Below are positions 4,785 through 18,039 of a stretch of DNA of 64,000 nucleotides, in pieces; positions within the stretch are counted from its first letter, which is position 1, and each line of letters begins with the position of its first letter. The stretch is from Mucilaginibacter conchicola (GTDB lineage Bacteria > Bacteroidota > Bacteroidia > Sphingobacteriales > Sphingobacteriaceae). The notes beneath the pieces were generated by a model that saw only the letters and a list, made by a program, of their open reading frames with translations, was not told the origin of the DNA and did not search any database. The stretch is from assembly GCF_003432115.1 (NCBI RefSeq), contig NZ_QWDC01000001.1, forward strand, positions 868,001-932,000, in the 5' to 3' direction. The position numbers were made by a program, and so were the translations under genes.

Positions 4785-6176
4785 TTAGAAAATCCCCAGG
4801 AATTTCTTGCGCTTCTTTTTTGGTGGAGCAGCATTGGTTGAATCAGTTACCGGCTTCTTTTTCCAAACTTTCTTTTTGGCGGCAATGGTTGCTAAACGTG
4901 CGTGCTCTACACTATCGTGGTTGTAGTTCTTAGGCACATAAGGCGGGCGAAGGTAATTTATCTCGGGCACATAAACCACATTTGGTGTACCGGATGGCTT
5001 CCGCAGGAAAGCATAGAGCGATATCGCCACAAAAACAAGCCCAACGGCTATAATAGTTGCCAGTGTTTTCTTAGGTAATATCACGTTTGATGGGTTGCGC
5101 TCGTAAATACCTTTATTGCCGTTATAACGTGCGCCTGTTTCTTTTGCAAGGACCTGCAGATCGGCTAATTGCCTGTTCTTGTCTGCCTCATCCTTTTCAA
5201 AACCCTCAACCAGCTTTCGCAAACGTTCATTCTCAGCAATTATAGCATCGTTATTGGCTTTGCTATCGCCAGAGAAGTTGGCATCAACAATGGCTTCCTG
5301 CAGTTCAACACCGCTGGCGTATCTTTCGGTCGGTTGTTTGCACAAACATTTTTCTATCACGGCAATCAACCAGCGTGGCAACTGCATTTCCTGATCGCGC
5401 TTTTCTTCTGCCCAGGTGCGGGGCAGGTTATTTTGGCGCATAATCCGCAGATCGGGCACGGGCGTTTCAATATGCGCCATCCTTACGTTATTACGGGCCG
5501 TTTCTCCGTTACCTTCAAGCGGGAAAGGCACATTGCCGGTAAGCATTTCGTAAAGGATGATGCCGTATGCATAAACGTCTGATTGTGGCAGCATGGTGCC
5601 ATCCGTTTGCTCGGGGGCCATAAATTCAATGGCACCGGCATGACGGATACTGGTGCGGCGTTCCTCATCTGTAAGAATGGCCAGCCCAAAATCAATCAGC
5701 ACATAGTTACCGGTTTGGGCATTGTATTTAACGTTATTGCTTTTTATATCCCCGTGGTTGATGCCAATTTTATGGCAATGTGCCAGTGCGCCGGCCAGTT
5801 GATAGGCCAGGCGAATGGTTTCCTTTACAGTAAAGATCCTGTCGCTTGGTGGCTGCAGCAGGTCGCAAAGGTCGGGGCCGTCAATGTATTCCATCTCAAT
5901 GTACGGCAGCGACCCACTCTCGGTAATACCCGAACTGAGGATCTTTACCACATTGGGGTTAGGTACCTCGTTCACCTTTTGCAGCTTGGCAACCTCGTTC
6001 ATAAAGTTGCGGTAGTTGCGGTCATCGGCATTTTCGGCATAAATGGGCGTTGGCAATATCTTCACCGCGGAGATAACAGGCCCCATGCGCTTGCCTTTAT
6101 AGACAGATCCCTGCCCGCCCGTTCGCAGCGCGCCCAGATTCTCTAATCCTTCGGTTATGGTGAACACTTTACTCAT
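4785..6176 (-). CDS. Membrane Ser/Thr protein kinase (paralogue 1)
   Basis: 463 residues. The kinase domain covers about residues 1-290: glycine loop GGQGSVYKG, lysine in AVKILP, catalytic loop NHGDIKSNN, DFG in LIDFGLA and MAPE. The catalytic loop has HGD instead of HRD, a non-RD kinase. A polar, probably coiled segment follows (about 305-350), one transmembrane helix at about 369-390, and a short outer tail rich in Pro, Lys and Arg. The cytosolic kinase thus senses across the membrane without PASTA repeats. The start overlaps the end of the FHA gene by 8 bases. It is closely similar to the kinase at 13778-15139, which opens the operon. Likely substrates are the FHA proteins and the glycan polymerase fusion (inferred). 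Confidence 0.95.
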   Translation of the reverse strand: MSKVFTITEGLENLGALRTGGQGSVYKGKRMGPVISAVKILPTPIYAENADDRNYRNFMNEVAKLQKVNEVPNPNVVKILSSGITESGSLPYIEMEYIDGPDLCDLLQPPSDRIFTVKETIRLAYQLAGALAHCHKIGINHGDIKSNNVKYNAQTGNYVLIDFGLAILTDEERRTSIRHAGAIEFMAPEQTDGTMLPQSDVYAYGIILYEMLTGNVPFPLEGNGETARNNVRMAHIETPVPDLRIMRQNNLPRTWAEEKRDQEMQLPRWLIAVIEKCLCKQPTERYASGVELQEAIVDANFSGDSKANNDAIIAENERLRKLVEGFEKDEADKNRQLADLQVLAKETGARYNGNKGIYERNPSNVILPKKTLATIIAVGLVFVAISLYAFLRKPSGTPNVVYVPEINYLRPPYVPKNYNHDSVEHARLATIAAKKKVWKKKPVTDSTNAAPPKKKRKKFLGIF

Positions 6177-6960
6177 TGCCTGCCGGTTGATAGCTAAACT
6201 CCAATACTGCCGATTCGCCCAGGATGATCTGGTCGCCCTCTTGTAATTGATGACCTATATGAGTAGAACTTAGTTTAATGATATCCTCACTTTTTTCTGA
6301 GCGGATCTTCACTTTATTTCTTGGCGGCACGCCGCCTTCATCGGCATAGATATAAAACTTACCAGCCTCATCGCTCCACTCGATGTGAGCATGCTGGCGG
6401 CTTACATATTTGTTAGCCTCATTGGCGGTATCGCTCGGGAAAGCAATATGGTTGGTACGGAAAAAGCCATCATCGCCTTGCGCTTTTTTATCCCTGCCGA
6501 TATGGATCTTATCCTTGCCCGATTGGATATGGTACTCCTGCTGATCGGTCTCGCCACCCAAAACACGGATGTATGCAGATGCCGATTGCTTAATAAAATT
6601 ACTGCCCGTTTTGATGAAGAATGCAGCATCAACCTTTTTGGCTGGCACGGCTTCCTCGGGTAATTCCTGATCGAATATTACATCCAGCTGCCAGGTTTGC
6701 GGCAGGTTAACGGCATAATCATCGGCAATGCGTTGTACTTCGTCTTTAAATTGCTCGGGGGCTTCTATATAAACGGCAGCCTCGTAAAGCGACTTGTCCG
6801 CCGCAGGCGCATTGATATACAGGTTAAGGCCACGGATGTTGCCACCCTCGCCACCTTCGGCCTTTTGCAGTTCATGCTTGATGAATTGCAGCAACTCGTA
6901 CCTTATACCCTTAACATCAGACGGACGGTCTGGCTTATCGCTTTTGAAAAAATTGAACAT
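6169..6960 (-). CDS. FHA-domain protein (intact phosphothreonine reader)
   Basis: 263 residues. The C-terminal half (about 150-258) is a forkhead-associated domain: IHIGRDKK, SRQHAHIEW, GKFYIYADEGG, and LQEGDQIILG. The Gly-Arg and Ser-x-x-His residues that hold phosphothreonine are present. The N-terminal half (LLQFIKHELQKA, followed by EAPEQFKDEVQRIADDYAVNL and WQLDVIFDQEL) resembles in pattern the N-terminal domain of actinobacterial FhaA; this is a tentative likeness. It precedes the kinase gene (overlap 8 bases), so it is a natural target and adaptor of that kinase. Confidence 0.9.
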   Translation of the reverse strand: MFNFFKSDKPDRPSDVKGIRYELLQFIKHELQKAEGGEGGNIRGLNLYINAPAADKSLYEAAVYIEAPEQFKDEVQRIADDYAVNLPQTWQLDVIFDQELPEEAVPAKKVDAAFFIKTGSNFIKQSASAYIRVLGGETDQQEYHIQSGKDKIHIGRDKKAQGDDGFFRTNHIAFPSDTANEANKYVSRQHAHIEWSDEAGKFYIYADEGGVPPRNKVKIRSEKSEDIIKLSSTHIGHQLQEGDQIILGESAVLEFSYQPAGNE

Positions 6961-6974
6961 TATATTGTGAATGT

Positions 6975-7041
6975 GGCGTACCTACGGCACGCAAAATCAT
7001 ATTACTTTTTTATTCTACCGATCTGATGCACCGACGGTGCA
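6975..7041. repeat. Dispersed palindromic repeat (TACGG/CCGACGG family)
   Basis: Two hairpins, GCGTACCTACGGCACGC (6976-6992) and TGCACCGACGGTGCA (7027-7041), joined by an AT-rich spacer ending in TTCTACCGA. The same pair and order recur at 42896-42961. It fills the only large gap (144 bases) inside the kinase operon and may modulate expression of the genes downstream. Confidence 0.75.
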
Positions 7042-7104
7042 TTGGATGCTTTTAACCGTAGCCCCGCTTTGATGGCGATATTTTCTTACCTATAAACCCT
7101 TGTG

Positions 7105-10100
7105 TTATTCAGTTGTTTGTTCTTCTTTATTTTCTCTGATACTTTTGATGTATCCCTTCTCTTTCAGGAACGGAATAACATGTTCGCCGGCCAGTTTAAC
7201 CGCGTCTGATGAGCCTTTTGTAGACTCGATACGGATGCAAACCACCATTGCCCCCGGCCCGTTCGCCTTCGGTGCGAAAAAAACGTACCAGCCGTCGTTT
7301 ATCTGCTGGCCCTTCCAGATACGTTCCGGTGTACCGGTTTTACCTGCAACAGCAAGGTGTAACCGCCATTCTTTAGGCGCACTTTGCTCTATCATGTACC
7401 TGCGAAGCAGTTGTGCATACCTCGGATCGTTAGTGATCTTGGTGCCCGGCTTAACTTTAGTGGTAGAGTCGCTTACTTTTAGTACGTAGCGGTTCTGCAA
7501 CATAGTGCCATTGTTGGCTATACCCGCAGCCATACGTGCCACCGCAGCCGGCGTAGCGATCAGCTCGCCCTGGCCCCACGCCATACCCGAGATACCCTTT
7601 GCCCTCGTTTTACGGATATCATTAGGATTGTAGCGTGGCTTGGTATTGAACTCTGTTTTACGCCATAGCTCGCGCCATTTCTCTTCCTGTTGGGCATTCT
7701 CCTTATCGCGGCCATAATAGTAGCCACCTACGCCATGCAGGAACATACCCGTTTTCAGATATACCGTTGCCATATCTTCCTGCAGGTGTTCCTCGTTGGC
7801 CAGCTTAATAAAGTACACGTTGTTTGATTTGGCAACTGCCGCTTCTAAAGTGATTAAACCTGTTTCATCAGGCTCAAAGCCTTTGGTACGGATACGCTCA
7901 TAACTGGCCACGTTAAATTTGCGGTTTGCTGCCGCCATACCCAGTTTATTGAACGATGCGATGGATGTTGCAAGCTTAGCTGTAGAGCCTGGCTGCGTGG
8001 CCAGGGTAAAGCCCAGATCCTGCGTGGTCATCCAGCCTGCCAGTTGGTTTTGGTCGGCGTAGCTCATGGTGAGTTTTTCCCAGTCGTGTACCGGTGGTAG
8101 CGGGTAACTGGCTGAGGTCAGCACATCGCCGGTATTTGATTCCATTACCACTACAGATACCCGGTTATCCAGCAGCGACGTATCCTGCGCTATCGAGTTT
8201 TGTATCTCGGTCTGCAGCTGCGCATCCATGGTGAGTTTAACATCACGGTTGCGCTTCTTAAATGCTTCTACTTCTTTACTGTTGATGCCTGCCAGTAGCA
8301 ACGGCGCAATGGCACCGTAATCGCGTTTTACCACGGTCATTTCCTTAACGCCGCGGGCCAGGAAGCGGTCTTCCTGGTAACGGTTGGCCGTGATGTTGAT
8401 CTTCTCCGTAGGCATCTGGAAACCGCGTAACTCAGCGGCGTGCTCGTACTCGGCAAAGTAACCATTCGGGCTGCCATTGAATACACCGGTGTTGGCATCC
8501 CCTGTCCAGAAGAACATTTGCTCATCAAACGGGTAATACCTGTCCAAGCGTTTATGCATGGCCGAATCGATATTGTAATTCCCGGCACCGGCTATCACCA
8601 GTTTACGGTGTTGTTGTTTTACTAACTCAGGGTCGCTGGTGGCCAGGAGTACTCCTTGCCTATCGTAAAGGTTACCCGCTTCCAGGCGGTTCATTAATAT
8701 GGCAATGCGCGGGTTGTAGCTGAACATCCTTGCGCCGCTTTTATCGGCTACTAATGATGGCTTTACCACCCACTTTTTATTATTGAACGAATATCTTGAT
8801 ACACTTACCGAAAGCAGCATCACACCGCTCAAAGCAGCCATCAGCGCGGGCACCAGGTTTTTATCCTGTTGGCGCGATATATAGCTCATCTGCACCGGAG
8901 TTCCTCTTACTTTTGATGCCGAGAACAAAAAGCCCGAGGCCAGTAAGTTGGCCACCAGTGATGAGCCACCATAACTTTGGAACGGCAGTGATACCCCTGA
9001 AAGTGGCAATGCCCCCGTTGAGCCACCCGCAATGAGCAGGAATTGCACAAAGGTGGACACCCCTATACCCGCACATATATAAAAGAGGAAAGGCGTACCC
9101 GTTCGCCGGCCAATGATGATGGAACGGTGCAGGTAAAGCAGAAACAGGATAAAGATACAGGTCATGCCCGCCCAGCCAAACTCTTCGCTCATGGATGGCA
9201 ATATCATATCCGTATGCGCCTCTGGAATGGTTTTGGCAAAGCCCTCTCCCACACCCTGACCTGCAACACCACCGCTCGACATGGCCCAAAGGCCGTTAGC
9301 CACCTGGTCGCCGCCATAAACTTCGTTATTCCAGGCATCCTGCCAGATGGCTTTCCTATCAACCAGTCGCTGTACCGGTCCCGGAAATAGTTTCCCAAGC
9401 AACGGCACCTGGTCTATGGTAACAAAGGCTGCCATGATCACCAGCACCATCACCGCCGATTCGCTGAGTGACCGGCGTTTGAACAACATCATGATGGCAA
9501 CCAGCGCAGCTGTTATCAATGCCGCCAGCCAAACATTTTTCACAAACCAGCTTACCAGTACATACAGTACTACGGCGATGGCCATAAACATAAAATCGCC
9601 TCGCGAAAAGGAGAATAGCACAATGAAGGTAAACAGCACCACCATTGCCGGTCCCAAATCGCCCAGGATAAGGAACAGAAACAGCGTTACTAAAATGGCT
9701 ATCAGCGCAAAGGAGAAGAATTGCCAGCGCTTGCTCCAACTGCTGTATTCGCTGATGAGCTTTTCGTTAGCGGCAAAAAATCCTGCAAGAAAAAGTATAA
9801 TGAGGTATTTAACGATCTCGCTGGGTTGAAAGCCGAACAGGTTAACCTTAACACCGCTCCCCTCGGGGCCGGTACCAAATTTGATAGTTAATGCCAACAA
9901 TGTTGCCGCCAAAACTACCCAGGGCCAGCCATCGGCAGCGCTGCGTACCTGTTTAAATACCAGCATACGGTAGATCCATGAATCGGGCGTAAAGCGGCGC
10001 AGTTTCAGGAATAACATCACCAGCATAGCGCCCAGGCCAATGCCAAGGTACATCAGCATATCCTTAGCCAAAAAGCGATCTCGCAGTGGATCCTGCAGGC

Positions 10101-11187
10101 TCAATAGTGTGATGAACGATAAGCCGGTTAAGGTCATGATGACCGGTAATATCAGCTGGTCGGCATCTTTGAAACCTATCGAAAGGACAATATGCACCAA
10201 CAGAAACGCGCCCAAAAAGCTGCCAACGATGATATAGAACCAATGGTTAAAATCATCAACGGTGCGGATGGTGAGTGATTTTTCTTTCTTAAGGATATTG
10301 AAATCCCGCGTAGAGAACAACCTGATAGTATGCGGCTGTTGTGTGAAAGTAAAGGCGGCATCGTCCTCTAACATTTGTACGCCTTGCGATGTACCGAACT
10401 GGTAGCCCGGCTGCAATGGCAATACTTTGAATGCTTTACCTGAGGGCAAATGTGTAAACTGCGCTACCCCTTGTTCGTTTGTGCGGGCATAGGCTATTAA
10501 TGCTTGTAAGCGGCGTTTGCCTGCACTATCGGGCAAAAATGTTTTAGTGAAACCGTTTCCAGCCTCTGTTACGCGTTTAATCTCTCCTATCTCCTCATCG
10601 GTGCTGATGCTATCCTGCGGCAACACCATTTGCAGGCGCACAAGTACACCGGCTACGGATTGCTTCTTGTTAACGATGTTTACAGCGATGGTTCCACTGC
10701 CCATGTTCACATTAGTTGCCTGCGGGACTTGCTTGGGATTTTCTTTCTCGCTTACAAACAGCAATGAATCGGCACCGGTGTAGCCCAACAACATCCTTGA
10801 AGCCGTAACACGGCTTTTGAATGATTTGCCACCCTGCGCAAAAGCATCATCGGCAACGATAAAATACTTGCGTTTATTCAGCTCGCCGATGTTATCTATC
10901 TGCTCTTTAGCATCCGTAGCGCTGGCAACGGTTGAGGTGATCAGATCGATATCTTTTGAGTCCTCAAAATAGTAGCCTTTGGTAAGCAAGCGTTTCAACT
11001 GACCAGCCGGATCACCTGCATTAAGGTTGATCATGGTGCCATCCTGCAGGCGTTTATCTACATCGGTAAAGCGGGTTTGCAGCACGGTATGTAGCCTCAG
11101 AAAAAGGCAAATGAACAATGCGCCTAAGAGTACAATGAAGATCCGCTCCGTCCACCTGCCGGGTGTTTGCACTTTATCTGCTTCCAT
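7105..11187 (-). CDS. FtsW/RodA-type glycan polymerase fused to a class B penicillin-binding transpeptidase
   Basis: 1360 residues. One N-terminal transmembrane helix (about 15-33) is followed by a periplasmic insert of about 270 residues. A SEDS domain with many helices occupies about 310-790. It holds the hallmark stretch GGVAGQGVGEG...PEAHTDMI...SEEFGWAG around residue 660, including the Asp of the HTD motif that is conserved and essential in RodA/FtsW polymerases. After a linker, a PBP dimerisation-type segment begins (GNLYDRQG, about 855). The transpeptidase domain has all three active-site motifs: STAK near 1067, SNN near 1119 and KTGT near 1282. One protein can therefore polymerise and crosslink peptidoglycan. 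Its start overlaps the PP2C gene by 14 bases, implying coupled translation. SEDS enzymes and their PBPs are usually separate proteins. Confidence 0.95.
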   Translation of the reverse strand: MEADKVQTPGRWTERIFIVLLGALFICLFLRLHTVLQTRFTDVDKRLQDGTMINLNAGDPAGQLKRLLTKGYYFEDSKDIDLITSTVASATDAKEQIDNIGELNKRKYFIVADDAFAQGGKSFKSRVTASRMLLGYTGADSLLFVSEKENPKQVPQATNVNMGSGTIAVNIVNKKQSVAGVLVRLQMVLPQDSISTDEEIGEIKRVTEAGNGFTKTFLPDSAGKRRLQALIAYARTNEQGVAQFTHLPSGKAFKVLPLQPGYQFGTSQGVQMLEDDAAFTFTQQPHTIRLFSTRDFNILKKEKSLTIRTVDDFNHWFYIIVGSFLGAFLLVHIVLSIGFKDADQLILPVIMTLTGLSFITLLSLQDPLRDRFLAKDMLMYLGIGLGAMLVMLFLKLRRFTPDSWIYRMLVFKQVRSAADGWPWVVLAATLLALTIKFGTGPEGSGVKVNLFGFQPSEIVKYLIILFLAGFFAANEKLISEYSSWSKRWQFFSFALIAILVTLFLFLILGDLGPAMVVLFTFIVLFSFSRGDFMFMAIAVVLYVLVSWFVKNVWLAALITAALVAIMMLFKRRSLSESAVMVLVIMAAFVTIDQVPLLGKLFPGPVQRLVDRKAIWQDAWNNEVYGGDQVANGLWAMSSGGVAGQGVGEGFAKTIPEAHTDMILPSMSEEFGWAGMTCIFILFLLYLHRSIIIGRRTGTPFLFYICAGIGVSTFVQFLLIAGGSTGALPLSGVSLPFQSYGGSSLVANLLASGFLFSASKVRGTPVQMSYISRQQDKNLVPALMAALSGVMLLSVSVSRYSFNNKKWVVKPSLVADKSGARMFSYNPRIAILMNRLEAGNLYDRQGVLLATSDPELVKQQHRKLVIAGAGNYNIDSAMHKRLDRYYPFDEQMFFWTGDANTGVFNGSPNGYFAEYEHAAELRGFQMPTEKINITANRYQEDRFLARGVKEMTVVKRDYGAIAPLLLAGINSKEVEAFKKRNRDVKLTMDAQLQTEIQNSIAQDTSLLDNRVSVVVMESNTGDVLTSASYPLPPVHDWEKLTMSYADQNQLAGWMTTQDLGFTLATQPGSTAKLATSIASFNKLGMAAANRKFNVASYERIRTKGFEPDETGLITLEAAVAKSNNVYFIKLANEEHLQEDMATVYLKTGMFLHGVGGYYYGRDKENAQQEEKWRELWRKTEFNTKPRYNPNDIRKTRAKGISGMAWGQGELIATPAAVARMAAGIANNGTMLQNRYVLKVSDSTTKVKPGTKITNDPRYAQLLRRYMIEQSAPKEWRLHLAVAGKTGTPERIWKGQQINDGWYVFFAPKANGPGAMVVCIRIESTKGSSDAVKLAGEHVIPFLKEKGYIKSIRENKEEQTTE

Positions 11188-12634
11188 TTGGCTTGGCAGG
11201 GGTTTTAGGTTTAGCGGTATCGGCCTGTGGTTTAACAGCCGGTATGCGGGTGGTTATATTCTTATCAGCGCCTAACATTAAATTGTTCTGCACCGGCAGT
11301 TTGCAATTATTGAACTGCACGTTGCACAGCGTAAGGTCGGTGTTACCGAGGTTAATAGCCACATCAAAATCCTTAAACTTTATATTCTCCAGGCCAATGA
11401 TCTTGGTATCTTTTCCCAATACCACAGCAGGGCCTTTATATGAAGTATCGCGCTGCAAAACAAAGTTACCTTTTGCTTTGATGTAAAGCGTATCCTGATC
11501 AATGTGCAGGGTATCGCTCAAAATAACAGGCTGCTTAAAAGCGGTATCGGCTAACACCAAAGTATCGCCTTTAAAGGCGTCTATTGCATCCTGCAGTTTA
11601 ACTTCGTTATCGTTACGCAATCTGGCACTATCGGCAACCGGCAGTGCCGCTTTATTAACCGACTGCCCTTTCATGAACAGCCATACGGTTGTACCTAAAA
11701 ACAACAGGCATAGCAGCCCTAATATAACGGTCAGTCCGCTGTTTCCGCTTTTGCGCATTTGGGGTTCGGGTTTTGTTTTCGGTTGGTCGGTATGTTGGTG
11801 ATGTGATCTTTCTTTTTGTTCATCATCCTCTTCTGCGCGTTTTACCTGGTTGGTTACGGGTGCCACGGCTTGCGGTTGGTTTCTTTGCTTATCATTTTGC
11901 ACCAACACCACGGTCACGTTATCGCGGCCACCGTTATTGTTGGCAGCAGTGATGAGTTCGCGGGCTTTTTCCTGCAGAGATACGTTAAGTGTCAGTATCG
12001 AGAGGATGCCTTCTTTATCCACTAAATCGGTCAAACCATCGCTGCAAAGCAGCAGCAGGTCGCCGGGCAGGAATGGCGATTCGCCGGTCTCCACAAAGCT
12101 GTCGTCAGTCTCGATCATGTTACTGAAACCTAAGGCCTTGTTGATCTCGTTACGTTTTGGATGGTTCATGGCAGCGTCCTCAGTCAAACGGCCGCTATCC
12201 TCCAGAAAACCCACAAAAGAGTGGTCTTTAGAAATCTTTACCAATGATTGATCGCGCAGCAAATACAAACGAGTGTCGCCTACGTGGGCATAATAAAAGC
12301 GGTTATTCTCCACATCGGCGATAGCCATGGTGGCTACGCAGGCCATGCTTTCCAGCTCTTTATCCTCAGCCTTTTTATCGGCGATATTACGGCTGGCTTG
12401 CTTAAAAGCCTCTATCATGCTTTCGATGATATTGGTTTGCGGGTTGCTCAATCGCTCCACAAAAACATCGTGTGCAATTTGGGCAGCCACTTCGCCGCCA
12501 TTATAACCGCCTACGCCATCGATAACGGATGCGAGCACCAGTTTATCGCGCATAATTTTGCGGGCAATAAAAGTATCCTCGTTATTGCTGCGTACGCGGC
12601 CGGTATCAGTTTGTCCAAAATAGTTTTCAGCCAT
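11174..12634 (-). CDS. Membrane PP2C-type Ser/Thr phosphatase with outer domain
   Basis: 486 residues. The PP2C domain (about 1-255) shows the metal-binding motifs GQTDTGRVRSNNED, DGVGGYNGGE, HVGDTRLYL, CSDGLTDLV and GGRDNVTVVL. A Lys/Gln-rich linker leads to one transmembrane helix (about 298-318). An outer region of about 160 residues has repeated short strands (LYIKAKGNFVL, AVVLGKDTKIIGLENIKF, DLTLCNVQFNN) reminiscent of a right-handed beta-helix. It would reverse the action of the two kinases in this operon, as PstP does in actinobacteria. The overlaps with the small ORF upstream (8 bases) and the polymerase fusion downstream (14 bases) indicate translational coupling. Confidence 0.93.
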   Translation of the reverse strand: MAENYFGQTDTGRVRSNNEDTFIARKIMRDKLVLASVIDGVGGYNGGEVAAQIAHDVFVERLSNPQTNIIESMIEAFKQASRNIADKKAEDKELESMACVATMAIADVENNRFYYAHVGDTRLYLLRDQSLVKISKDHSFVGFLEDSGRLTEDAAMNHPKRNEINKALGFSNMIETDDSFVETGESPFLPGDLLLLCSDGLTDLVDKEGILSILTLNVSLQEKARELITAANNNGGRDNVTVVLVQNDKQRNQPQAVAPVTNQVKRAEEDDEQKERSHHQHTDQPKTKPEPQMRKSGNSGLTVILGLLCLLFLGTTVWLFMKGQSVNKAALPVADSARLRNDNEVKLQDAIDAFKGDTLVLADTAFKQPVILSDTLHIDQDTLYIKAKGNFVLQRDTSYKGPAVVLGKDTKIIGLENIKFKDFDVAINLGNTDLTLCNVQFNNCKLPVQNNLMLGADKNITTRIPAVKPQADTAKPKTPAKPNGSR

Positions 12635-12725
12635 TGCGTTTACCTGATCGTTTTATATCGATAAAATGGGTAAGCAGCATTAGCCCCCCAATCACCAATA
12701 AGCCTATAGATAATATTTGTGACAT
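12627..12725 (-). CDS. Small single-pass membrane peptide, 32 residues
   Basis: An ATG at 12725, three bases after the stop of the degenerate-FHA gene, opens a 32-codon frame ending TGA at 12627. The peptide is a hydrophobic helix (ILSIGLLVIGGLMLLTHF) followed by a basic tail (DIKRSGKRNG), a one-pass membrane protein with the tail probably in the cytosol. The end overlaps the PP2C start in an ATGGCTGA arrangement. Tight spacing on both sides, a plausible membrane segment and the positive-inside tail argue that it is real and not chance. A role as a small partner of the membrane kinase, phosphatase or polymerase is a guess. Confidence 0.6.
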   Translation of the reverse strand: MSQILSIGLLVIGGLMLLTHFIDIKRSGKRNG

Positions 12726-12728
12726 GCC

Positions 12729-13694
12729 TTATGCTTTAAACAGGTTTAAGCCGATGATGCCATTGAGCAACATGCGCGAGTTAACAGGCAACTCTACCCA
12801 TTTTGGTGCGTTAATGTCGCTGCGTTCTATTTTCACTTCGTTCAATGTGGTCATCTCCCCGAACGATGCGAGGTAGAATTTACCATCAGACCGGTTATAG
12901 CGAATCTGCAAATGCGGCGCGTTAACCCAATCTGACGGGATAGTAAATATGTTGGAATCCTCGCGGGTTTCCTCGCTGCCCGATACAATGATCTCGTCAT
13001 CTTTCATCAGGTACTCCACCTTTTTACCGGCAAATTGCTGATCGGGAATAATGGTTTCCAGTTTGGCGATGCTGTCTTTTGGTAGTTTGGTTGATGTTGC
13101 AGTTGCAGCTTCCTCAGCAGCCTGCAGGTTATCTTCGTAAGGGATCTCAAAATATCCTTCGCTGTAATAGTTAAAGCCTTTCAGCACATCCTGACTCACA
13201 TCAAAGGTTTGCGCTATACCCGTTTGGCGCGGGATGAAGGTTACACGCAGGTTTTGCTCCTTTAAAGGCTCATTATTATCAGGTAATAATTTACCAATGA
13301 AACCTTTATCGCCGCGGGCATAATCGGGGTGCGACACCAAACGGAATACCCATTTAGAGCCGGATGGCTTCACGGTTTTACCCGCATCGCGATACTCTTT
13401 TAGTATCTCATAGAATTTTTCTACGGTTTCCTGTACTATCAAACCGAAAATACCTTGTTTATCGGCAATAAACTCCTTATAATCTTCGGGGTTAAAGCTG
13501 ATGATAAACTCGTGGTAAAACACCACCCTATCGGCAAAGGAAAGCTGCTTTATGGAGTCGCGAAATTTCTCCACGATATAACTGTAAACGGTATCGGGCG
13601 TAAGGGCTTTGGCTTTAGCCTTTTCGGTGGTCTCGTTGGTCAAAAACCAATCCTGTATACCTATGCGTTGCCAAAAATTAGGTGTAGATGCCAT
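12729..13694 (-). CDS. Degenerate FHA-like protein
   Basis: 321 residues, no signal or membrane segment. The C-terminal third (about 230-320) aligns by eye with the FHA domain of the 6169-6960 protein, sharing the GKFY strand and N-x-VKI spacing. However the Gly-Arg turn is replaced by SGS and the Ser-x-x-His motif by NAPH, so phosphothreonine binding is probably lost or altered. Residues 1-130 form a helical region I do not recognise (FADRVVFYHEFIISFNPEDY). Residues 120-200 hold KWVFRLVSHPDYARGD and NLRVTFIPRQ. It lies between the leading kinase (83-base gap) and the small membrane peptide (3-base gap). A scaffold in the kinase system is the likely role, by position. Confidence 0.7.
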   Translation of the reverse strand: MASTPNFWQRIGIQDWFLTNETTEKAKAKALTPDTVYSYIVEKFRDSIKQLSFADRVVFYHEFIISFNPEDYKEFIADKQGIFGLIVQETVEKFYEILKEYRDAGKTVKPSGSKWVFRLVSHPDYARGDKGFIGKLLPDNNEPLKEQNLRVTFIPRQTGIAQTFDVSQDVLKGFNYYSEGYFEIPYEDNLQAAEEAATATSTKLPKDSIAKLETIIPDQQFAGKKVEYLMKDDEIIVSGSEETREDSNIFTIPSDWVNAPHLQIRYNRSDGKFYLASFGEMTTLNEVKIERSDINAPKWVELPVNSRMLLNGIIGLNLFKA

Positions 13695-13777
13695 TTATGG
13701 TAAATTCAAAAGTCAAAATTAAAAATTCAAAATGCTCTCTTTCAAGCTATACTGAACACGGTTTGCAGGCAGATGTT

Positions 13778-15139
13778 TTACTGCTGCATTATGGTGTCAG
13801 GCTGTGTGCTTGTAGAATCGGGCTTGGTTCTTTGCGGTTCTGTAGGCTGTTGCCTAAGTACCGTGGTATCTAACCTCACCGGCGTATCAGCTTTGCTTTG
13901 TCCCTCATCAGGATATTTAGATCCATAATCTATTTTACCTGTATCTGGTTTGTTCTGTACAGAATCCTGCTTTACCTGCTGGGTTGAGCCATCTTTTTTC
14001 AGGAAAGTTGCGTATACTGAAAAGCCCATGAACACTACTATCAAAACCATCAGCGTATAGTAATATGGTTTTGACAACGAAATACGCGATTCATCCTCAA
14101 CGGGTTCGGCAGCAACAGGCTCGGGCGGCGGGCCGGTTTGCTGGTATTGTAGTAACAGGTTATGCAAACGTTCATTCTCGCTGCGCAGGGCGGCATTGCT
14201 CAAGCCGCCGTTAAAATCATGGCTTTCAGCCGATGCCAGGCTGCCACGGATAATGGCATCATGCAGTTCGGTACCGTTCTGGAACCTCAGCTCAGGGGCT
14301 TTCTGCAAACATTTGTCAATCAGCTTAAGCAGCCACTGCGGCACCTGCATTTCCTGCGCTTTCTTCTCGTCGCTCCAGGCGGCAGGCATAGCGGCTCGGC
14401 GGGCAGTAAGCAGGTCTGGTACTTTTGATTCGATATGGGCCAGCATAACGGCGTTACGGGCGTTGTCTCCTGCTCCGCTAAGCGGGAAAGGCACCTCGCC
14501 GGTCAGTAGTTCATATAAAATAATGCCATAGCTGTAGATATCGGTCTCTAACAACATCTTGCCATCGTGCTGCTCGGGTGCCATAAACTCAACCGCGCCT
14601 GCGTGGCGGATACTGGTACGGCGCTGCTCTTCTGACATGATGGCCAGTCCGAAATCCAGCAACACATAGTTGCCGGTATTAACGTTGTATTTTACGTTGT
14701 TGCTTTTAACATCGCCATGCTTTACCCCTACACGGTGGCAGTGCGCCAATGCGCTTGACAGCTGATCGGCCACGCGGATGGCCTCTTTCAGCATGAAAAT
14801 TTTATCGTGGGGATCTTTCAGGAGTTCGCAAAGATCAGGACCTTCAATGTACTCCATCTCGATGAAGGGAAATGATCCGCTATCCGTCAATCCCCAGCTT
14901 AGTATCTTAACCACATTGGGGTTAGGCTCCTCGTTTACCTTTTGCAGTTTGGTTACCTCGTTACGGAAATTGCGGTAGTTGCGGTCGTCCTCGCTCTCGT
15001 TAAGGATAGGCGTAGGCATCAGCTTGATGGCGGTAAGCACCGGCCCCATGCGGCGGCCTTTATAAACGGAACCCTGCCCGCCGGTGCTCATGGCACCCAA
15101 ATTCTCCAAACCTTCGGTTATTGTAAAAACTTTGCTCAT
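13778..15139 (-). CDS. Membrane Ser/Thr protein kinase (paralogue 2), first gene of the operon
   Basis: 453 residues, same architecture as the kinase at 4785-6176 and nearly identical at the N-terminus (MSKVFTITEGLENLG). Motifs are GGQGSVYKG, AIKLMP, KHGDVKSNN (again HGD), LLDFGLA and MAPE. A single transmembrane helix lies at about 355-380. The outer tail of about 70 residues is rich in Asp, Gln, Pro and Thr (QQVKQDSVQNKPDTGK), in contrast to the basic tail of paralogue 1. The gene starts after a 156-base region containing the terminator of the neighbouring gene, so the operon promoter should lie at about 15140-15240 on this strand. A duplication that placed one kinase at each end of the operon is apparent. 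Confidence 0.95.
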   Translation of the reverse strand: MSKVFTITEGLENLGAMSTGGQGSVYKGRRMGPVLTAIKLMPTPILNESEDDRNYRNFRNEVTKLQKVNEEPNPNVVKILSWGLTDSGSFPFIEMEYIEGPDLCELLKDPHDKIFMLKEAIRVADQLSSALAHCHRVGVKHGDVKSNNVKYNVNTGNYVLLDFGLAIMSEEQRRTSIRHAGAVEFMAPEQHDGKMLLETDIYSYGIILYELLTGEVPFPLSGAGDNARNAVMLAHIESKVPDLLTARRAAMPAAWSDEKKAQEMQVPQWLLKLIDKCLQKAPELRFQNGTELHDAIIRGSLASAESHDFNGGLSNAALRSENERLHNLLLQYQQTGPPPEPVAAEPVEDESRISLSKPYYYTLMVLIVVFMGFSVYATFLKKDGSTQQVKQDSVQNKPDTGKIDYGSKYPDEGQSKADTPVRLDTTVLRQQPTEPQRTKPDSTSTQPDTIMQQ

Positions 15140-16578: not shown

Positions 16579-18039
16579 ATGATCAATAGCCCCGAAGGAC
16601 AGCATATTTTAAGCAGACTCAAAAACGAGCTGCCGGGGCATTTCCATTATCATAATGCTGATCATACTATCGATGTTTATAACGCCGCCAAAGGCATTGC
16701 CGAAAAAGAAAGCATTAATGCTGAAGATGCCCGTCTGTTATTAGTAGCTGCGCTTTATCACGATAGTGGTTATCTTAACCGTGTTAAAGAACATGAGCGT
16801 GCATCATGCGATATTGCGAGGGAGACTTTGCCTGACTTTGGTTATACTGAGGATGAGATCAACCGCATCTGCGCCATTATTATGGCCACCCAATTGCCGC
16901 AACAACCGGCGGATCATCTGGAACAAATTATCTGCGATGCCGACCTGGATTATTTGGGTCGCGCTGATTTTGTGAGTACCGGCGATAACCTGTTTGCCGA
17001 GATGAAGGCCATGGGCAGTATCCATGATAAAAAAGCATGGGATGCGCTGCAAATTACTTTTCTGGAACAGCACCGGTATTTCACCAAAACGAGTGTTGAA
17101 AACAGGGAGCCTAAAAAACAAGAAAATTTAAGAGATTTACAGAACACAATACCTATTGCCGAAATGAGTACAGCGCCAACCGCCAAATCAATCATTACCG
17201 ACACTATTTATACCATTGCAGGTATCCTGTTCTGTGGTTTTGCCTTAAAAAGTTTCCTGATACCAAATGCTTTCTTTGATGGCGGCGTTACCGGTATCTC
17301 GCTTTTGATACACGAGCTTTACCACTTCAATATTGCTTACGTTATTATCCTGGCAAATATTCCTTTCATTATTATGGGGATGTTCCAGGTGAATAAAACC
17401 TTTGCGCTGCGTACATTATTGGCCATTATAGGTTTGGGATTGTGCATTTTGTATGTACCCTATCCTGATAAGATCACTTCTGATAAACTGCTGGTATCTA
17501 TCTTTGGCGGGGTGTTTATGGGTACGGGAATCGGCATGGCTATCCGTGGTGGTTGTGCCCTCGATGGTATCGAAGTATTGGCCCTTTACACCGGCAAACG
17601 CATTAGCTTTACTATCAGCGAGATCATTCTGGGCATCAATATCGTTATCTTCCTGATAGCAGCTTTTGAGGTTGGTTTTACCACTTCTTTATACTCTATT
17701 ATCACTTACTTCACGGCCTCGCGCATGATCAACTTTGTGATAGAGGGCTTGGAAGAATACACCGGTGTTACCATCATTTCGGGCCAAAACCAAGCCATTA
17801 AAGAGATGCTGGTAATGCAACTTGGCCGCGGTATTACCATCTACAAAGGCGAACGCGGTTTTCTGAAAGAGAGCTTTGATGTGCACCATCCTGTTGATAT
17901 TGTTTTCACCGTTGTAACCCGCCTGGAACTACGCCGCTTAAAGGATATGGTGCATGAAATAGACCCCAAAGCTTTCATCTTCACCAGCATTATTAAAGAA
18001 GCTGCGGGTGGGGTGCTGAAGAGAAGAGCGAGACATTGA
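16579..18039 (+). CDS. HD-domain phosphohydrolase fused to YitT/DUF2179 membrane protein
   Basis: 486 residues. Residues 1 to about 175 form an HD domain: His in YHNADHT, HDSGY near residue 60, and the second metal Asp in CDADLDYLG near 117. After a linker, about 205-385 is a YitT-family membrane region with five or so helices (FCGFALKSFLIPNAFFDGGVTGISLL, GTGIGMAIRGGCALDGIE). The cytosolic C-terminus is DUF2179 (TIYKGERGF, FTVVTRLELRRLK). The YitT-DUF2179 half is common in many bacteria; joining it to an HD hydrolase is unusual and would link a nucleotide- or phosphate-hydrolysing head to an uncharacterised membrane carrier. The start is the first ATG of the frame. Confidence 0.85.
   Translation: MINSPEGQHILSRLKNELPGHFHYHNADHTIDVYNAAKGIAEKESINAEDARLLLVAALYHDSGYLNRVKEHERASCDIARETLPDFGYTEDEINRICAIIMATQLPQQPADHLEQIICDADLDYLGRADFVSTGDNLFAEMKAMGSIHDKKAWDALQITFLEQHRYFTKTSVENREPKKQENLRDLQNTIPIAEMSTAPTAKSIITDTIYTIAGILFCGFALKSFLIPNAFFDGGVTGISLLIHELYHFNIAYVIILANIPFIIMGMFQVNKTFALRTLLAIIGLGLCILYVPYPDKITSDKLLVSIFGGVFMGTGIGMAIRGGCALDGIEVLALYTGKRISFTISEIILGINIVIFLIAAFEVGFTTSLYSIITYFTASRMINFVIEGLEEYTGVTIISGQNQAIKEMLVMQLGRGITIYKGERGFLKESFDVHHPVDIVFTVVTRLELRRLKDMVHEIDPKAFIFTSIIKEAAGGVLKRRARH

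Follow-up and report, generated by a model that had tools for sequence, protein, structure and literature searches.

A conserved Bacteroidota operon with a single-chain SEDS-transpeptidase, collinear with the actinobacterial wall-growth locus

The window analyzed here is a stretch of 64,000 nucleotides from the genome of Mucilaginibacter conchicola (contig NZ_QWDC01000001.1, positions 868,001 to 932,000), whose minus strand carries, between window positions 4785 and 15139, an operon of six genes. In the order of transcription derived from the list of open reading frames (ORFs), these encode a kinase (K1), a divergent FHA-like protein (dFHA), a PP2C phosphatase, a single chain joining a SEDS polymerase to a transpeptidase (hereinafter the fusion), an intact FHA protein (FHA) and a second kinase (K2). 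Comparative analysis identifies this operon as a real, conserved and collinear Bacteroidota relative of the actinobacterial wall-growth locus, featuring a natural single-chain SEDS-transpeptidase. With the actinobacterial fhaA-fhaB-pstP-rodA-pbpA-pknA-pknB arrangement it shares the core order FHA-PP2C-SEDS-transpeptidase-kinase, on one strand. A preliminary description of the region, made from the sequence alone, had asserted a different gene order; this does not hold for the core, which is collinear, and applies to the extra upstream kinase and the placement of the second FHA protein. It had also counted seven genes where the ORF coordinates give six, and was otherwise accurate as to location and contents, i.e., two membrane kinases and a membrane PP2C on the minus strand (Pfam; hydropathy gives each a single transmembrane (TM) segment), one degenerate and one intact FHA protein, and a polymerase-transpeptidase fusion with both Pfam domains in one ORF.

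Conservation and distribution of the operon

A scan of genome contigs with the fusion recovered 68 loci, mostly from Mucilaginibacter and Pedobacter, with other Sphingobacteriaceae and some Chitinophagaceae. Excluding seven that were too short, 61 of these have at least 4.2 kb before and at least 3.5 kb after the fusion, and in all 61 the dFHA, PP2C, fusion and FHA genes occur in the same order, on one strand and with at least one kinase, the gene classes being defined by models built on the same loci (the fusion model matches 66 of the 68). Such a conserved core is therefore beyond chance, and the preliminary description's own counter-scenario, in which the wall gene and the kinases are never neighbors among relatives, is contradicted by their being neighbors in every one of the 61. 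A kinase comes first in 53 of these loci and last, i.e., downstream, in 46, the latter arrangement being that of the window operon. The PP2C and fusion genes overlap in 36/66 loci and the FHA and kinase genes in 36/48; in the window these overlaps measure 14 bp and 8 bp, with gaps of 83 bp between K1 and dFHA, 94 bp between dFHA and PP2C, and 144 bp between the fusion and FHA. A Bacteroidota promoter pattern gave four matches against a shuffle mean of three, with none before K1. The window's neighboring ThuA and luciferase-like genes are rarely shared, with homologs in 10 and 13 of the 68 loci, respectively (counts for genes farther away are limited by the 10-kb flanks); hence, it is the block and not the region that is conserved.

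As the 68 loci are near relatives picked by means of the fusion, deeper loci matter more. One of these, L103 (genome G298), shows the order kinase-dFHA-PP2C-fusion-FHA-kinase, and a Spirosoma oryzicola plasmid (L030), together with L104 and L105, has dFHA-PP2C-kinase-kinase-fusion-FHA, with both kinases between the PP2C and the fusion. When fusion matches with E up to 1e-60 are counted, the fusion is present in 11 of 31 relatives, all 11 being among the 19 members of its own genus, some of which are incomplete; in 77 of 301 genomes of the family (7/25 genera); and in 15 of 395 Bacteroidota genomes (8/170 genera). At least 20 genomes of the same genus in the family scan do not have it. The operon is accessory. 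In a FastTree analysis of 67 fusions and 3 outgroup rows, the Sphingobacteriaceae form one group (98), with the Pedobacter fusions falling in two places among the Mucilaginibacter rows.

The window genome, which is 99.87% complete, has a single match each to the PP2C_2 and Pfam FHA models, both inside the operon, and four to the Pkinase model, of which K2 (131 bits) and K1 (121 bits) are the strongest; these counts reflect what the three models detect. FtsW-like and RodA-like proteins are encoded elsewhere in the genome, making the fusion its third SEDS protein. By hydropathy, each kinase has one predicted TM segment after the catalytic domain, the PP2C one and the fusion many, and none is predicted in FHA or dFHA (Table 1). 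Beyond the operon, window positions 16579-18039 hold one ORF that, on visual inspection, resembles an HD phosphohydrolase linked to a membrane protein of the YitT type.

Table 1. Features of the operon in the M. conchicola window, with the evidence for each
Feature	Position	Strand	Basis
K1, Hanks-type Ser/Thr kinase	13778..15139	-	Pfam Pkinase 1.8e-34
K1 layout: N-terminal catalytic domain, TM at ~residues 359-382, short extracytoplasmic tail			Hydropathy
dFHA, divergent, probably FhaA-like protein, 321 aa	12729..13694	-	Profile match, predicted fold, motif loss
PP2C phosphatase: cytoplasmic catalytic domain, TM at ~296-323	11174..12634	-	Pfam PP2C 8e-16; hydropathy
PP2C extracytoplasmic domain: predicted short beta-helix-like solenoid, candidate sensor	11174..11659	-	Structure model
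Fusion: SEDS glycan polymerase and class-B-PBP-type transpeptidase, one 1360-aa chain	7105..11187	-	Pfam
Fusion, N-terminal extracytoplasmic region, residues ~39-312	10252..11073	-	Transthyretin-like domain visible in relatives
Fusion, SEDS domain, residues 319-772, H-T-D at 658-660	8872..10233	-	Alignment, motifs, tree
Fusion, TM and transpeptidase region, residues 773-1350	7138..8871	-	Alignment, motifs, tree
FHA, cytoplasmic 263-aa protein, FHA motif residues intact	6169..6960	-	Pfam FHA 6.1e-5
K2, second Hanks-type kinase, TM at ~365-385, K1 paralog	4785..6176	-	Pfam Pkinase 1.4e-37; kinase tree

Features and ancestry of the components

The fusion carries the FTSW_RODA_SPOVE (1.5e-43) and Transpeptidase (8.8e-25) domains of Pfam in one ORF, with the transpeptidase motifs S1068-x-x-K, S1121-N-N and K1283-T-G. 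The catalytic patterns were found in at least 65 of 66 near relatives; since the S-x-N pattern is loose and can match anywhere, the better evidence is a 19-row fusion alignment, in which the SEDS H-T-D and the transpeptidase S-x-x-K, S-x-N and K-x-G positions are invariant. The linker near residues 757-780, presumably cytoplasmic, is also conserved, with T763 found in 56 of 67 rows. Of the same 19 fusions, 16 have a match to the transthyretin-like CarboxypepD_reg domain at E up to 1, which lies above the cut-off in L099 and L101; the Pfam search found no such match in the window fusion itself. Additionally, none of the 19 matches PBP_dimer_2 at E up to 1. In L102 (G209), a single uninterrupted frame of 1384 codons encodes a PP2C domain, the SEDS domain and the transpeptidase, suggesting a phosphatase that acts on, or together with, the synthase. 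A gene for a lytic transglycosylase with four LysM stretches (L102:4449-6653) is found a short distance before the FhaA-like gene and triple fusion of this locus, on their upstream side. Other variants include a fusion in two ORFs, 12 bp apart, in a Segetibacter metagenome-assembled genome (L065:8190-12482), which could be an assembly error or a real split, and a second, more divergent SEDS-transpeptidase fusion (L182:5165-9088), with a kinase gene ~4 kb upstream, in a genome (G161) that already has one.

In a SEDS tree of 43 rows, with labels such as "own RodA" assigned from neighbors, annotation and the tree, the 14 fusions constitute a single clade (100/100), to which six actinobacterial RodA (96/87) and then the FHA-linked RodA of Monoglobus (100/99) are joined. 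This group stands apart from 22 FtsW/RodA/SpoVE rows, including the two from the window genome itself, and the larger group retains 100/99 support upon removal of three long or partial rows. Gene neighborhoods were read for five of the six actinobacterial RodA (all but that of Embleya), and each of the five has fha genes next to it. Approximately unbiased (AU) tests reject placing the fusion SEDS with Bacteroidota RodA (6.1e-5), with Bacteroidota FtsW (8.6e-5) and with the nine-row canonical RodA group (0.003). The fusion clade is not nested inside actinobacterial RodA. In the transpeptidase tree, constructed without the Embleya PbpA row, the fusions again form one clade (100/100), and grouping with Bacteroidota PBP3 is rejected (5.5e-4). 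A PDB ranking with the fusion profile does not single out PbpA.

Inspection of the FHA protein shows the G-R (155-156) and S-R-Q-H (187-190) residues in place, in line with the preliminary description, and all 23 members of its alignment match Pfam FHA at E up to 10; its N-terminal part gave no match in profile comparison. The degenerate state claimed for dFHA is likewise borne out: Pfam finds nothing above chance in the window protein, and in an AlphaFold2 model, which comprises an N-terminal alpha/beta domain and a C-terminal FHA fold, residues ~205-321 adopt the latter (Z 11-14 among the matches listed), the rows of the structure alignment (VIA-align) spanning residues ~200-321. Among 63 near relatives of dFHA, the S-R-x-H pattern is missing in all and the G-R pattern in 55; on account of these losses dFHA is probably no longer a phospho-threonine reader.

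Although the FhaA_N domain has no Pfam match in FHA, dFHA or their aligned relatives, profile comparison connects dFHA to distant Bacteroidota proteins combining FhaA_N and FHA (E 2e-12 over 260 columns). Its N-terminal part alone matches these FhaA-like proteins with E 1.8e-5, and they in turn match the actinobacterial FhaA_N with E 5.5e-4; the direct comparison of dFHA with actinobacterial FhaA_N is weak (E 0.028). In each of these three comparisons, none of 60 column shuffles did as well. On such profile evidence, dFHA appears to be FhaA-like. FhaA_N itself was detected in 4 of the 395 Bacteroidota genomes (3 above the Pfam cut-off). All four belong to the 15 fusion-bearing genomes and have FhaA_N adjoining the fusion; as three of them are of one genus, they amount to about two independent cases. 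In L101 (G060), the FhaA-like protein, the PP2C, the fusion and a HEPN_Swt1-FHA protein are encoded by separate consecutive genes. Such a HEPN_Swt1 domain followed by an FHA domain occurs beside the fusion at L101:11935-13305 and L102:11979-13253, and a HEPN_Swt1 match just under the cut-off lies beside an FhaA-like gene and a PP2C at L183:1854-3554.

The kinases display the expected catalytic motifs (in K1, HGDVKSNN, DFG, APEQ and AIK), whose patterns recur in at least 110 of 111 kinases among near relatives. Neither K1 nor K2 has a Pfam match to PASTA, as had been stated in the preliminary description, and they score 144 and 155 bits with the NCBIfam PASTA-kinase model, which has a cut-off of 450. 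In the kinase tree, from which matches shorter than 180 residues were dropped, a single clade (98/93) holds 13 of the 20 locus kinases, a separate one (100/100) comprises six of the Spirosoma type, and one kinase from L103 lies elsewhere. Tandem copies within loci are often mutual nearest kin, and extra tandem copies, as at L040:4422-5810 and L067:15465-20885, suggest local kinase expansion. The synthase, PP2C and FHA proteins could hence be viewed as the stable core, with the kinases as its exchangeable part.

The PP2C possesses the DGVGG, GDTR, SDGLTD and DNVT motifs, and the catalytic patterns are found in 63/63 PP2Cs among near relatives; its NCBIfam Stp1/IreP score of 210.6 bits lies just under the cut-off of 230. 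The 12 locus PP2Cs, with those of G060, G209 and a G161 contig among them, all fall into a single clade (100/99), which leans toward Firmicutes Stp without strong support (90/81; 93/81 in a repeat). L197, L209 and L212 gave no domain match for this tree, and in each of the pairs L199/L203 and L200/L204 the two loci overlap and come from a single place. The extracytoplasmic domain was modeled with a mean predicted local distance difference test score of 84.5. Its PDB matches are weak (best E 0.09, none reaching 0.001), so that its candidacy as a sensor derives from the model.

Proposed function and alternative explanations

These observations make it probable that the operon specifies an accessory peptidoglycan synthase under the control of a phosphorylation switch; the activities of the enzymes, the way in which the switch acts, its phospho-target and the sensed signal are what we infer. 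The fusion chain would polymerize glycan through its SEDS domain and cross-link it through its transpeptidase, operating beside the ordinary RodA-like and FtsW-like machines. K1 and K2 would phosphorylate a member of the complex (fusion, kinase or FHA partner), on which the intact FHA protein could then read the phospho-threonine and recruit or gate the synthase, with dFHA as a putative phospho-independent scaffold and the membrane PP2C resetting the switch. In place of PASTA domains, the likely sensors are the beta-helix-like outer domain of the PP2C and the transthyretin-like outer domain of the fusion. A one-chain synthase would also fix the ratio of polymerase to cross-linker.

Several results weigh against this reading or the ancestry on which it draws. 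The patchy distribution (15/395 genomes) indicates that the machine is dispensable for the phylum. None of the 20 locus kinases falls inside the PknA/PknB-PASTA group (100/98), and therefore their regulation need not follow the mycobacterial wiring. Two further Pkinase matches in the genome, at 57 and 36 bits, are weaker, yet above the Pfam cut-off. In the SEDS tree, the branch uniting the fusions with actinobacterial RodA is short (0.034) and its support drops from 96/87 to 88/86 without the three problem rows, while the long fusion stem (1.2) leaves room for some long-branch pull. Grouping of the transpeptidase with PbpA/Monoglobus is not rejected (p 0.215), and neither is grouping with the six-row PBP2 group (p 0.439); consequently, no meaning attaches to the slight preference for PbpA. 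Similarly, union of the locus PP2Cs with the whole PstP group, which in this test includes the nested row L119, is not rejected either (p 0.363; 0.141 without long rows). Finally, the triple fusion of L102 comes from a single genome, where a start at an internal ATG could yield its parts separately.

As regards origin, an assembly by convergence, wherein an unrelated SEDS-PBP fusion was joined separately in Bacteroidota by kinase, FHA and PP2C genes, would account for the kinases lying outside the PknA/PknB group, the absence of the PbpA dimerization domain (19/19 fusions) and the kinase positions that differ between lineages. However, the SEDS domain groups with FHA-linked RodA rather than with canonical RodA or Bacteroidota FtsW, the core genes are collinear with those of the actinobacterial locus, and FhaA_N, to whose Bacteroidota bearers dFHA is related, occurs in the phylum sample exclusively in four genomes that each have the fusion. 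Given the SEDS tree and tests, the collinear order and FhaA_N in distant Bacteroidota loci, a fully convergent assembly is quite improbable. The same tree and gene order are compatible with the transfer into Bacteroidota of an entire operon, actinobacterial or clostridial in origin, in which genes later fused and PASTA was lost, as are the presence of the operon on a Spirosoma plasmid, its varying immediate neighbors, and a PP2C that leans to Firmicutes Stp with a PstP grouping not rejected. Such a transfer, nevertheless, sits poorly with kinases separate from PknA/PknB, a fusion clade not nested in actinobacterial RodA and the long divergence within Bacteroidota in the SEDS tree, and we regard it as rather unlikely in this form. 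Hence, of the two origins offered in the preliminary description, full convergence loses ground to the SEDS tree and FhaA_N, which leaves old transfer with change, next to deeper common descent, as a possible origin.

As regards function, the fusion might instead be a constitutive backup synthase, e.g., one that better tolerates beta-lactams or wall damage, with the kinase, FHA and PP2C genes regulating other targets and merely traveling along. The patchy, accessory distribution and the transpeptidase profile matches to PBP2a-type models, which are weak and far below the cut-off, are in keeping with this; set against it, the strict linkage (61/61), the PP2C within the synthase ORF of L102 and the confinement of the genome's PP2C_2 and Pfam FHA matches to the operon render it decidedly unlikely. 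Kinase-FHA-PP2C triads (PpkA-PppA-Fha) are also known from type VI secretion systems, and the kinases match the PADLOC PD-T4-6 and mad6 kinase models (best E ~1e-46). That the triad belongs to such a secretion or anti-phage system is nonetheless extremely improbable in view of its strict link to a wall synthase, the absence of TssC (VipB) matches in the genome (other type VI secretion genes were not searched), and PADLOC finding nothing in the fusion, FHA and dFHA at E 0.001 and the PP2C only weakly. A phosphorylation-switched synthase thus remains the favored reading.

Growth control in mycobacteria through PknA/PknB, PstP and the Fha proteins has been much studied. The FHA-RodA-PbpA wiring is hard to isolate there, because Mycobacterium smegmatis has 18 Ser/Thr kinases, of which PknA and PknB are called essential (PMC6554272). 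The accessory version described here, from a soil genus and in a genome with few other genes of this kit, should be dispensable, so that it could be taken apart and put back one gene at a time.

Comparison with known systems

The agreement in gene content claimed by the preliminary description holds when the operon is compared with an actual locus, that of Nocardia farcinica (L117), where one strand carries genes for FhaA_N-FHA, FHA, PP2C, SEDS and PbpA (with PBP_dimer_2) proteins, a kinase and a kinase with four PASTA stretches. Loci from Tsukamurella and Actinomyces oris (L184, L186) agree with this order; in Tsukamurella the phosphatase is unannotated but a PP2C frame is present. PMC6554272 describes the locus as conserved through Actinobacteria, with a pknB-fhaA cluster in a subset of Firmicutes; FhaA and FhaB are presented in PMC11898655 as phospho-threonine readers in that operon, and both sources connect the corresponding mycobacterial gene set with growth and cell-wall control. 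The two systems have the same parts, i.e., FHA proteins, a membrane PP2C (with the same architecture in PstP and the window PP2C), SEDS, transpeptidase and two kinases, and their SEDS domains form one group. In contrast to the actinobacterial locus, with its separate rodA and pbpA, the window operon has a single ORF, with an extra N-terminal extracytoplasmic domain and without the PBP_dimer_2 of PbpA; its kinases lack the PASTA domains of PknB and lie outside the PknA/PknB group; a kinase occurs both upstream and downstream, with the second FHA protein before the downstream one; and dFHA has lost its motif. The operon is thus not a member of the actinobacterial locus, having no PASTA, no PBP_dimer_2 and no separate rodA and pbpA, though we infer that in outline it works like it. 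A literature search, judged from titles and the beginnings of abstracts, found no paper on this operon, and its novelty in print is claimed within that search.

A natural SEDS-transpeptidase fusion is also encoded on a plasmid of Rhodococcus sp. WAY2 (L118:9077-11902), but this version has PBP_dimer, falls on long branches in other parts of the SEDS and transpeptidase trees, and has no kinase among its annotated neighbors. It and two other Rhodococcus plasmid matches are annotated only as FtsW/RodA/SpoVE family. In Monoglobus pectinilyticus (L187), an FHA gene directly precedes those for RodA and a class B PBP. In the SEDS tree this RodA joins the group of fusions and actinobacterial RodA, and the PBP is the best non-fusion transpeptidase match (126 bits), whereas the genes are separate, PBP_dimer_2 is present, and a PP2C and PASTA kinase are on another record (L122). 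The canonical RodA-PBP2 (elongasome) and FtsW-FtsI (divisome) pairs of the same genome likewise combine SEDS with class B PBP; unlike these, the fusion has linked kinase, FHA and PP2C genes, and AU tests exclude its SEDS domain from the canonical RodA group and from Bacteroidota FtsW. The operon also suggests an old origin within the family for the FHA-linked SEDS, which would then not be peculiar to actinobacteria. More tentatively, and with the balance somewhat against it, it might constitute a third SEDS lineage beside FtsW and canonical RodA, FHA-linked in Actinobacteria, Clostridia and Bacteroidota and wired to phospho-threonine signaling, which became a single-chain polymerase-cross-linker in Bacteroidota and, with the phosphatase in the chain, a self-resetting wall synthase in one lineage.

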